From NCBI GenBank assembly GCA_018239725.1, contig JAFEGU010000405.1, positions 1-42,092 of the forward strand: a stretch of DNA of 42,092 bases, in the 5' to 3' direction. A program made the translations under genes and the position numbers. Positions 12,582 through 14,744 of the stretch are shown one piece after another; the first letter of the stretch is position 1; every line of letters starts with the position of its first letter. The stretch comes from Verrucomicrobiota bacterium (GTDB lineage Bacteria > Chlamydiota > Chlamydiia > Chlamydiales > Rhabdochlamydiaceae). The notes beneath the pieces were generated by a model. That model did no database searches. It was not told where the DNA came from and saw only the letters and a program-made list of their open reading frames with translations.

Positions 12582-14744
12582 ATGCGCTTATTTAAAATGT
12601 CGTTAACTCTCCAAATGGCAATTGCCACAGTTCTTGGAATACTTTGCGGTTTTTTCTTTGGCGATCTTTGCGAAGTCTTCAGCAACTGGGCTTCCGCCTA
12701 TATTATGCTCCTTAAAGTCACTGCAGTTCCCTACCTAATCGCTGCTATTATTCATGGTGTGGGGCAGCTGAGTTTAACCCAAGCAAAGATGATCATGAAG
12801 CGGGGGATCCTCTTCATTGGGCTTGCTTGGTCAATCAACATCTGCATCATCTACTTGATCAATTATGTCTTTCCTCGCTCTGAATCGACCCAAGTCAGCG
12901 GATACGTCTCTACCGAAACGCCCCATCTAAATTTTGCTGAATTACTTATCCCCGATAATATTTTTTACGATCTTTCGAACAACATCATTCCTGCCATCGT
13001 GATCTTCTCTTTGCTGATCGGCATTGCCCTCATGTACCTCAAAGAAAAGCACACTTTGATGTATTGCTTCGAAAACTTAGTCGAAGCCCTCACGAGGATC
13101 ACATCTTGGATAGCTCGCATTACCCCTTATGGGACCTTCCTTATTATCGCTAACCAGGTAGGAACTGTCCAACTGTCGACTGTCAAGCAGGTGAGCACTT
13201 ATATCATCCTGTACATGGTTGGAATTTCCATCATCGTTTTTTGGATCTTCCCCCGTTTGATCCAAATGTTGACCTCTATTCCTTCCTATAAATGGCTTCA
13301 GCAGCTGCTGCCCATCCTCTTGCTCGCATACACGACAAACGTTGTCATCGTTTGCTTGCCCTACATTATCGAACTTTTGAAAAAAGAAACTCAACTCCTC
13401 GATCCAAAAGATGAAAAAGCTCAGAGCCAGATCCAAGGTACCGTTTCTGTTGTTTTCAATCTGCCGCTAGGGTCCTTGTTCATTACTGTCTTCGTATTCT
13501 TCGTTGCGATTTTCTACAATTTCCCCCTTTCTTTCGGCTCTCAAGTTGAGCTCTTTGTCACCACTTTTTTAACGAGTCTCGGAGCTGTTGGCCTCGGCTC
13601 TTGGATCAACAGTTTGACATTCATCCTTGATTCTCTTGGCCTACCTATTGAAGCTGTCAACATCTACTTGACGACGCTGCCATTCACCGCAGGCTTTCAA
13701 TCGATGCTATCGGTCATGCAAATCGCTTCTATATCCCTTTTTATCACACTCTCCTGCCGCCAGATGATCATCCTCAAGTGGTCAAAAATCATCCGCAACG
13801 TGATCATCACTGCTATTCCCGTCATTGCTGTATTTGCCGGAATCTCTGTGTTTAATCCCCTTCCTAAAATCATCAATGAGACAAAAAGCATCTACGAACT
13901 GAAGATCTCCTCCAATATTCCTACAACTGTGTATCAAACTCCGAGCGCATCTCCCGTCTCCTCCACCGAGAATGAAGACGCTCTTGACAGGATCCTTCGA
14001 ACAAAGGTGCTAAAAGTCGGGTACAATACGGCTGTTCCACCATTTTGCTTTTTAAATGTCGATGGAAACATTGTCGGATACGATATCGCTTTTGCTTACG
14101 AATTGGCCTACGACTTGGGCGTAGATCTTGAGTTAGTTCCGCTCAATTATAGTAAAATCTCCGATGAGCTGAACGAGAACCTATACGATATTGCAATGGC
14201 TGCGATCACCATTAATGAACAGCGTTTGAAACAGATTGTCTTCACCCATGAATACATCAGCCCTCGGATCGTGTTTATTGCTCGCGAAGAGGGCCGTAAG
14301 ATGTTTATGAACACAGAAAAAGTCCAAGAGTCAAGGCATACTAAAATCGCTGTCTTAAAAGGGTCTTCGTTCGAACAACTTGCACGAGAGCTGTTTCCCA
14401 GCAAAGAACTCATTTTGCTTAAATCTTACGATGAATTTCTTTCCCTGGACAAAGAAGTCGCCCTTCTTTGGGAAGAACAAGAGGCCATCGCTTGGCTGCT
14501 TGTCCATCGTGGATACCGTTTAGTTTTACCTGATCCTGCGTTGGGATATGACACTCTTGCCTACGCAATTCGAAATAACAGCCCTTTATTTTTGCATTAT
14601 CTCAATACATGGCTTGCTCTGAAGAAAACCTCGGGCTACAGTCCCAAACAATATGATTTATGGATCAAAGGAAAAACAGAAATTGCTGCGCCGAACGAAC
14701 CGCGCTGGTCGATCATTCGCAATGTGCTGCATTGGGTTGAATAG
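12582..14744 (+). CDS. Fusion: DAACS (SLC1-type) membrane domain + periplasmic amino-acid-binding domain
   Basis: 720 residues. Residues about 5-395 follow the sodium:dicarboxylate/glutamate symporter fold, aligned by eye with GltP: TM1-6, hairpin 1 near AYTTNVVIVCLPYIIE (249-264), TM7 near FNLPLGSLF (292-300), hairpin 2 near SLGAVGLGS (332-340) and TM8 near 365-395. The key residues are missing: the NMDGT-type motif reads NLPLG, the serine-rich hairpin 1 motif is absent, and the TM8 D-R-T-N-D residues read as neutral ones. An extra hydrophobic helix at about 402-423 would carry the chain outside. A Ser/Pro/Thr linker (450-465) and a complete SBP_bac_3 domain (470-698: VLKVGYNTAVPPFCF, GYDIAFAYELAYDLG, AAITINEQRLKQIVFTHEYI) follow. 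Arg548 matches the carboxylate-binding Arg of LAO/HisJ-type binding proteins. Nine bases separate it from trmL. An inner-membrane amino-acid transporter or sensor is inferred; substrate unknown. Confidence 0.9.
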   Translation: MRLFKMSLTLQMAIATVLGILCGFFFGDLCEVFSNWASAYIMLLKVTAVPYLIAAIIHGVGQLSLTQAKMIMKRGILFIGLAWSINICIIYLINYVFPRSESTQVSGYVSTETPHLNFAELLIPDNIFYDLSNNIIPAIVIFSLLIGIALMYLKEKHTLMYCFENLVEALTRITSWIARITPYGTFLIIANQVGTVQLSTVKQVSTYIILYMVGISIIVFWIFPRLIQMLTSIPSYKWLQQLLPILLLAYTTNVVIVCLPYIIELLKKETQLLDPKDEKAQSQIQGTVSVVFNLPLGSLFITVFVFFVAIFYNFPLSFGSQVELFVTTFLTSLGAVGLGSWINSLTFILDSLGLPIEAVNIYLTTLPFTAGFQSMLSVMQIASISLFITLSCRQMIILKWSKIIRNVIITAIPVIAVFAGISVFNPLPKIINETKSIYELKISSNIPTTVYQTPSASPVSSTENEDALDRILRTKVLKVGYNTAVPPFCFLNVDGNIVGYDIAFAYELAYDLGVDLELVPLNYSKISDELNENLYDIAMAAITINEQRLKQIVFTHEYISPRIVFIAREEGRKMFMNTEKVQESRHTKIAVLKGSSFEQLARELFPSKELILLKSYDEFLSLDKEVALLWEEQEAIAWLLVHRGYRLVLPDPALGYDTLAYAIRNNSPLFLHYLNTWLALKKTSGYSPKQYDLWIKGKTEIAAPNEPRWSIIRNVLHWVE

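Follow-up and report, generated by a model that had tools for sequence, protein, structure and literature searches.

A probable new type of nutrient importer, made of two parts, in relatives of Chlamydia: an SLC1-fold carrier half joined to a binding domain in one chain

The window, meaning the whole stretch of 42,092 nucleotides that was analyzed, encodes a protein in which an SLC1-fold carrier half, a ninth helix and a binding domain are joined in one chain. The gene is a single open frame of 720 codons (12582 to 14744, plus strand, as are all features of the gene given below) and begins 9 nt past the stop of a SpoU methylase gene. The protein is likely a new kind of two-part nutrient importer, present in many relatives of Chlamydia, and no description of a protein combining SDF with SBP_bac_3 was found in the open-access literature searched. 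As to function, we infer a single-chain secondary carrier on the SLC1/DAACS elevator fold that would be fed by its own binding domain, a reading to which we give a probability of roughly 0.55. The substrate carried would probably be amino acids.

Both halves match their Pfam profiles almost from end to end. Residues 8 to 387 (12603 to 13742) match PF00375, SDF, with 165.3 bits against a cut-off of 27.9 (E 2.8e-48, profile positions 1 to 383 of 387), and the best PDB relative of this membrane half by sequence is the aspartate transporter 9bgz. Residues 477 to 695 match PF00497, SBP_bac_3, with 80.2 bits against a cut-off of 26.4 (E 1.5e-22, profile positions 1 to 130 of 132), inside a binding domain that spans residues 465 to 697 (13974 to 14672). 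The earlier note on this DNA had described an uninterrupted 720-codon frame with a GltP-like half and a complete SBP_bac_3 half, and the two near-complete profiles bear it out. The full-length match above the curated cut-off places the membrane half in DAACS/SLC1, and the complete profile places the other half in SBP_bac_3. SDF was the only Pfam family on the membrane half, which showed no membership of the TRAP, TTT or GltS membrane families. The protein nevertheless has the pairing that marks the TRAP, TTT and TAXI-GltS class, namely a secondary-carrier fold with a binding domain whose extracytoplasmic side is inferred. An NCBIfam scan of the fusion protein gave 17 models, none above its cut-off.

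The fusion is real and widespread in the phylum. A match at E <= 1e-30 was found in 70 of 232 genomes of the phylum, comprising 52 of the 61 genomes of the window's own family and 18 from elsewhere; in several of the 70 the gene is cut by a contig end, and in one (G210) the contig stops after residues 3 to 310. In a first sample, 42 of 48 genomes (the window's own counted) had some match, and the matches within the family were mostly full length. Full-length members are also found on two plasmids of Gammaproteobacteria, one from Halioglobus pacificus (26.6% identity) and one from Pseudoalteromonas xiamenensis (23.8%), each with PF00375 and PF00497. These two were the full-length members among 453 plasmid records with a match, and the Halioglobus protein as a second query returned the same two and no others at full length. 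The sole annotation of the Pseudoalteromonas member is "cation:dicarboxylase symporter family transporter." A scan of IMG/VR with one alignment (A2) gave 38 pattern matches and no relatives. The home assembly is in 405 contigs, yet full-length orthologues occur in many genomes, and the joining of two genes by an assembly error, which the earlier note had named as what would undo its claim, is thereby ruled out.

Homologues were divided into two classes. Class A holds 45 nonredundant full-length rows with about 45% identity or more to the window protein, reduced from 52 by dropping four identical copies, L021 (the same as L002) and the partial L008 and L031. Class B holds 26 rows with 24 to 34% identity, reduced from 27 by dropping the truncated L062t, and is a mixed bin, with L042, L061 and both plasmid members in it. 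In a tree of the membrane half, 50 fused halves form one clade against 13 canonical carriers with support of 100/100, L042 being on a long branch. The membrane-half tree thus suggests a single fusion event, and the binding-half tree agrees weakly, with the SBP halves on one side of a branch supported at 57/54.

The class A gene sits at a conserved locus. The gene order in the window is uhpC-like, hisS, aspS, FKBP, spoU, trxA, which we take to match the order in Chlamydia and which suggests Chlamydiota as the phylum. Among 33 class A loci excised with their flanks, FKBP and/or SpoU lies directly upstream in 31 and a convergent thioredoxin gene is found in 25, some loci running to a contig end. 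Class B genes have no FKBP, SpoU or thioredoxin neighbors except L061 and L042, which occupy the SpoU/TrxA locus in two further families. In all, 13 SpoU/TrxA loci were retrieved, and the fusion is present in those two and absent in 11, one of which has a Na+/H+ exchanger gene in between. The 10 neighboring frames that were scanned in the window are all housekeeping genes (HisRS, AspRS, FKBP, SpoU, thioredoxin, thiamin pyrophosphokinase, acyltransferase, cytidylate kinase, cytidylyltransferase and undecaprenyl diphosphate synthase), and no known signaling partner was among them. We note that one locus (L040, G025:C31:20200-24800) holds a tandem pair of class B fusion genes, whose products share 28% and 31% identity with the window protein; the architecture is duplicated locally too. 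Moreover, the window genome has a class B paralogue (L037/L111, G000:C191) that is divergent from genes reading, by their translations, as both carbamoyl-phosphate synthase subunits.

DAACS carriers bind substrate and Na+ through serines of hairpin 1 (HP1), an NMDGT motif in TM7, and Asp/Arg/Asn/Asp in TM8. In the window protein, the HP1 region (residues 236 to 265, 13287 to 13376) has LLAYTTNVVIV instead of the serine-rich tip, and NLPLG sits at the NMDGT place in TM7 (residues 293 to 297, 13458 to 13472). The TM7 substitution, already read by the earlier note, is found both in an HMMER alignment to 9bgz and in a profile alignment to canonical carriers; the MAFFT alignment shifts the canonical rows by two columns in TM7, and those cells of the residue table were not used. 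TM8 (residues 366 to 381, 13677 to 13724) reads TTLPFTAGFQSMLSVMQI, against VDRILDMCRTTVNVFSD or a near form in three canonical stand-alone SDF carriers (L043 to L045, one of the window genome and two of its family). The last three keep the TM8 Asp and Arg. At TM7 they read NMSGS or NLSGS, not NMDGT. Residues A370, Q373, S377 and I381 presumably sit at D394, R397, N401 and D405 of GltPh, whose numbering and roles we assume, with the TM8 register taken from the multiple alignment and from a single HMMER alignment against an EAAT1 construct. A profile-profile alignment of class A to canonical carriers covers residues 1 to 365 and ends before TM8, so TM8 is strongly diverged and its register is somewhat open. 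Within those 365 residues, no intact sodium or substrate residues turned up elsewhere. Thus, the protein is a DAACS member by profile, but neither by the TM7 motif nor by the TM8 residues.

What replaces the canonical residues is nearly constant. In class A, T251 and T252 of HP1 are found in 45/45 rows, P295 of TM7 in 45/45 and N293 in 44/45, and Q373 of TM8 in 45/45, S377 in 44/45 and I381 in 41/45, with A or S at position 370 in 44/45. The hairpin 2 (HP2) region (residues 324 to 347, 13551 to 13622) has G334, G337 and G339, each in 45/45. Class B keeps Q373 in 22/26 and S377 in 23/26, has P295 in 4/26, and has an acid at position 370 in 4/26. By these alignments, the canonical substrate and Na+ residues of class A appear to be replaced nearly always by the same residues. 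The earlier note had seen the TM8 and hairpin residues as swapped for neutral ones, and while the replacement stands, the new residues are not randomly neutral but a near-invariant polar set. Seven acids between residues 1 and 430 are kept in at least 36 of the 45 class A rows (D28, D125, E155, E269, D277, E278 and D350), and all seven fall in loops by the segment assignment; no conserved acidic residue lies within the membrane segments of the 45 rows. With the acids that coordinate Na+ gone, the canonical coupling to Na+ has probably been lost or replaced.

The moving parts of the carrier are also the most constrained. Mean column entropy in class A was lowest, at 0.74, for HP2 (region 321 to 350), followed by HP1 and TM8 at 0.95 each, and these three were better conserved than the other nine of the 12 regions measured. 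TM7 was at 1.14, the binding domain at 1.60, the tail region at 1.61, the ninth helix at 1.93, and a variable linker (residues 425 to 464, 13854 to 13973, presumably periplasmic) was highest at 2.11. Because HP2, HP1 and TM8 are the most conserved and T251, T252, P295, G334, G337, G339 and Q373 are invariant, a different, strictly kept site in the membrane half seems likelier than no site. According to the earlier note, the attached binding domain had taken over substrate recognition from the membrane core; the loss of canonical residues agrees with that proposal, but the strictly kept residues of HP1, HP2 and TM8 point to a different site in the core. dN/dS could be computed in 10 of 15 pairs (dS being saturated in the other 5 and greater than 1 in 4 of the 10; three pairs share L005, and one, L036/L037, is class B) and was 0.013 to 0.085 for the membrane half and 0.024 to 0.113 for the binding half, the former being smaller in 8 of the 10. 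With purifying selection stronger on the membrane half in those eight pairs, that half is re-tailored rather than decayed. Missing canonical residues and a fragmented home assembly might still suggest a degenerate, pseudogene-like carrier or an artificial joining of two genes. That explanation is scarcely credible, as it is contradicted by the low dN/dS and the near-invariant substitutions, together with the many full-length orthologues.

Where the binding domain lies depends on one added helix. A ninth helix at residues about 400 to 424 (13779 to 13853), predicted from hydropathy and flanking charges, would export the C-terminal domain. A 19-residue window with hydropathy of at least 1.5 is present there in 70 of 71 homologues, and in the alignment the sequences of the three canonical carriers stop short of it. 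The earlier note had placed the helix at about 402 to 423, absent from GltPh-like carriers, and had argued for a periplasmic binding domain unless the count of extra helices was even; the count is odd. In class A, the loop ahead of the helix averages 3.2 K+R and 0.1 D+E, and the 42 residues past it average 4.0 K+R and 4.4 D+E, K+R not being scarce there. From this charge pattern, the positive-inside rule and SLC1 topology, the loop would be cytoplasmic, and the binding domain and C terminus are most likely in the periplasm. AlphaFold2, given the full chain and six close sequences, produced an unusable model (mean pLDDT 39.1, pTM 0.25).

The topology bears on whether the protein is a sensor or regulatory receptor that arose from a transporter and reports on amino acid supply; a transporter-derived sensor had been offered by the earlier note beside a binding-protein-dependent carrier. 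Loss of the canonical transport residues and the likeness of the binding domain to periplasmic receptors would fit a sensor. A sensor is, however, improbable, as Pfam found no cytoplasmic output domain, the C terminus is most likely outside, and the scanned neighbors are all housekeeping genes. The missing output domain and the most likely periplasmic end of the chain make the carrier the better fit. The amino acids might, as the earlier note had supposed, be those of the host.

What the binding domain binds may be read from its residues. The best PDB match of the binding half by sequence is AncCDT-1 (5t0w), and its PDB relatives are amino acid SBPs and members of the cyclohexadienyl dehydratase lineage, several of the best matches being ancestral or modern dehydratases. 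The C-terminal half might on that ground be an enzyme of this lineage, acting in the periplasm and supplying the carrier with what it makes, but AncCDT-1 is itself titled an ancestral amino-acid-binding protein, and we give the enzyme very little credence. An AlphaFold model of the binding domain alone had a mean pLDDT of 61.1 and a pTM of 0.46, and Foldseek with that model confirmed the fold alone, with TM-scores of 0.51 or less among the 50 matches listed. For ligand residues we assume the roles in HisJ/LAO-type proteins, in which Arg548 (14223 to 14225) would bind the carboxylate, Glu631-Glu632 (14472 to 14477) would stand in the place of the amino-binding Asp, and two Ser/Thr would assist, all placed by residue alignment. 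R548 is found in 42/45 class A and 17/26 class B rows, S/T543 in 42/45 and 0/26, S/T595 in 44/45 and 2/26, and either 631 or 632 is acidic in 42/45 and 5/26. The full signature of R/K548, S/T543, S/T595 and an acid at 631/632, that is, the Arg, two Ser/Thr and one acid of SBP_bac_3 domains for alpha-amino acids, is present in 39/45 class A rows, including the window protein, and in 0/26 class B rows. The retention of Arg548 claimed by the earlier note thus holds for the window protein and class A, but only partly for class B. Because the signature residues are kept, the class A domain most likely takes an alpha-amino acid; the class B domain may bind something else, or nothing. Apart from the fusions, the window genome shows one further SBP_bac_3 match, to a frame of 251 codons, and thus puts such domains to other uses as well.

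Class B keeps the carrier without the amino acid signature, and the membrane half might be a DAACS carrier that acts alone on a neutral substrate, with a dispensable tethered domain that merely concentrates ligand. The near-invariant polar pocket and the stricter conservation of the membrane half than of the binding half would agree. Dispensability, however, is hard to reconcile with the strong constraint on the binding half too (the dN/dS range given above) and with retention of the fusion in both classes and in two gammaproteobacteria, and we regard a lone carrier as unlikely.

How a carrier fed by its own binding domain would work can be outlined from what is known of SLC1 and TRAP transporters. 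The SLC1/GltPh fold is a textbook elevator, and the N-terminal half would assemble as a trimer in which the transport domain moves. Suspended from the ninth helix, the C-terminal Venus-flytrap domain would lie in the periplasm. In class A, the flytrap would shut on an amino acid and dock onto the transport domain, perhaps aided by the C-terminal tail, and the ligand would be handed to a re-tailored, carboxylate-free pocket made of T251/T252 (HP1), N293/P295 (TM7) and Q373/S377 (TM8). An elevator stroke would then move the ligand inward. Among the points against a carrier, the lack of a conserved membrane acid leaves no obvious ion-coupling site, and class B lacks the full signature, so the carrier mechanism cannot be assumed for class B.

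The tail, RWSIIRNVLHW (residues 708 to 718, 14703 to 14735), lies past the end of the Pfam domain. R708 is kept in 68/71 rows, W709 in 67/71 and S710 in 67/71, and a motif RWS-[IV]-[IL]-R-[ND]-V-[LF]-H-W stands after the binding domain in most rows of class A and class B alike, as well as in the Halioglobus protein. When the last 60 residues were searched against plasmids by tblastn, 44 records matched; among the matches listed, Halioglobus had an E of 3e-6 and the other 14 rows were Sinorhizobium at an E of 0.02. That the tail helps docking is a guess. An amphipathic helix was considered for the tail and rejected, as a fraction of 0.434 of shuffles reach the tail's value.

A more specific possibility, which we advance tentatively and consider doubtful, is a Venus-flytrap-gated SLC1 elevator without carboxylate-based Na+ or H+ coupling, in which the tethered domain sets selection and direction and the protein is an uncoupled facilitator or a ligand-gated channel. 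A pure ligand-gated channel would resemble the receptor GluR0 but be built on the SLC1 fold: closure of the flytrap on an amino acid would open a path for ions or anions, and the transport domain would no longer carry substrate. The anion conductance of EAATs and GluR0 serve as models for such a channel. The lack of a conserved acid for ion coupling, the replaced substrate residues of class A, and a flytrap attached outside the membrane would all be consistent with it. Nonetheless, HP2, HP1 and TM8 are conserved as in a working carrier, TM7 being middling, and we judge the pure channel quite unlikely.

Among known systems, the fusion shares fold-level homology over residues 8 to 387 and the same order of segments with DAACS/SLC1 carriers (GltPh, GltTk, EAAT and ASCT2; PF00375), but differs by NLPLG for NMDGT, by A or S/Q/S/I for the TM8 tetrad in class A, and by the added ninth helix and periplasmic binding domain. 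Secondary transport fed by a binding protein is also found in TRAP and TTT systems, but their membrane families and binding proteins are different, and the binding protein, in TTT as well, is usually separate from the membrane part. According to PMC12344293, no secondary carriers other than TRAP and TT transporters had until then been known to work with a soluble binding protein, and DctP-type TRAP transporters have their substrate residues in the transport domain. A precedent for the proposed carrier is given by the TAXI-GltS fusions (14 among about 10,000 GltS entries; PMC12344293), in which a binding domain is joined to a glutamate-type secondary carrier, presumed to be an elevator; theirs, however, is an N-terminal TAXI-type domain on GltS, another family, whereas ours is a C-terminal SBP_bac_3 domain on an SLC1 fold that has lost its canonical residues. 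The same paper proposes that elevator carriers are suited to binding proteins, suggests that something in the way elevators work may permit their use, and states that further classes would test the idea (PMC12344293). If the protein works as we propose, that idea could be tested directly on a fold for which many structures have been solved, and the protein would show how the recognition residues in the core of a carrier can be exchanged after an outside domain has taken over the choice of substrate. If the flytrap-gated, uncoupled reading were true, the best-studied elevator fold would have its first binding-protein-dependent system. PMC6490308 describes the tick symbiont Rhabdochlamydia helvetica, perhaps of the window's family, as without several Na+-driven transporters of the Chlamydiaceae and as having two sodium symporters and two family 2.A.23 symporters.

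Polar amino acid ABC importers use the same family of binding protein with a TIGR01726 permease, but the fusion has no attached ABC permease or ATPase. Dependence on such a permease as a fixed partner is unlikely, since TIGR01726 above its cut-off was absent in 39 of the 52 fusion-bearing genomes of the family (52 to 99% complete), in a scan for this one permease model. TIGR01726 was found in 13/52 fusion-bearing genomes of the family versus 6/9 others (Fisher p 0.02), and in 17/70 versus 62/162 across the phylum (p 0.049, kinship ignored). The nine include G015, where a contig-end fragment matches residues 649 to 719 at 49%, so there is no true absence, and G143 and G170, where close matches to the neighbor genes are missing as well and the absence of the fusion may be an assembly gap. 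With absences limited to the three genomes that have an intact SpoU-TrxA neighborhood (G007, G014 and G026), the same test gave p 0.18. Given that value on the confirmed absences and the assembly gaps, we do not claim that the fusion replaces an amino acid ABC importer. Finally, apart from the fusion, the window encodes at 1190 to 1840 on the minus strand a full-length protein of the chloramphenicol acetyltransferase family (PF00302, E 1.2e-86), beside a 1249-codon frame.
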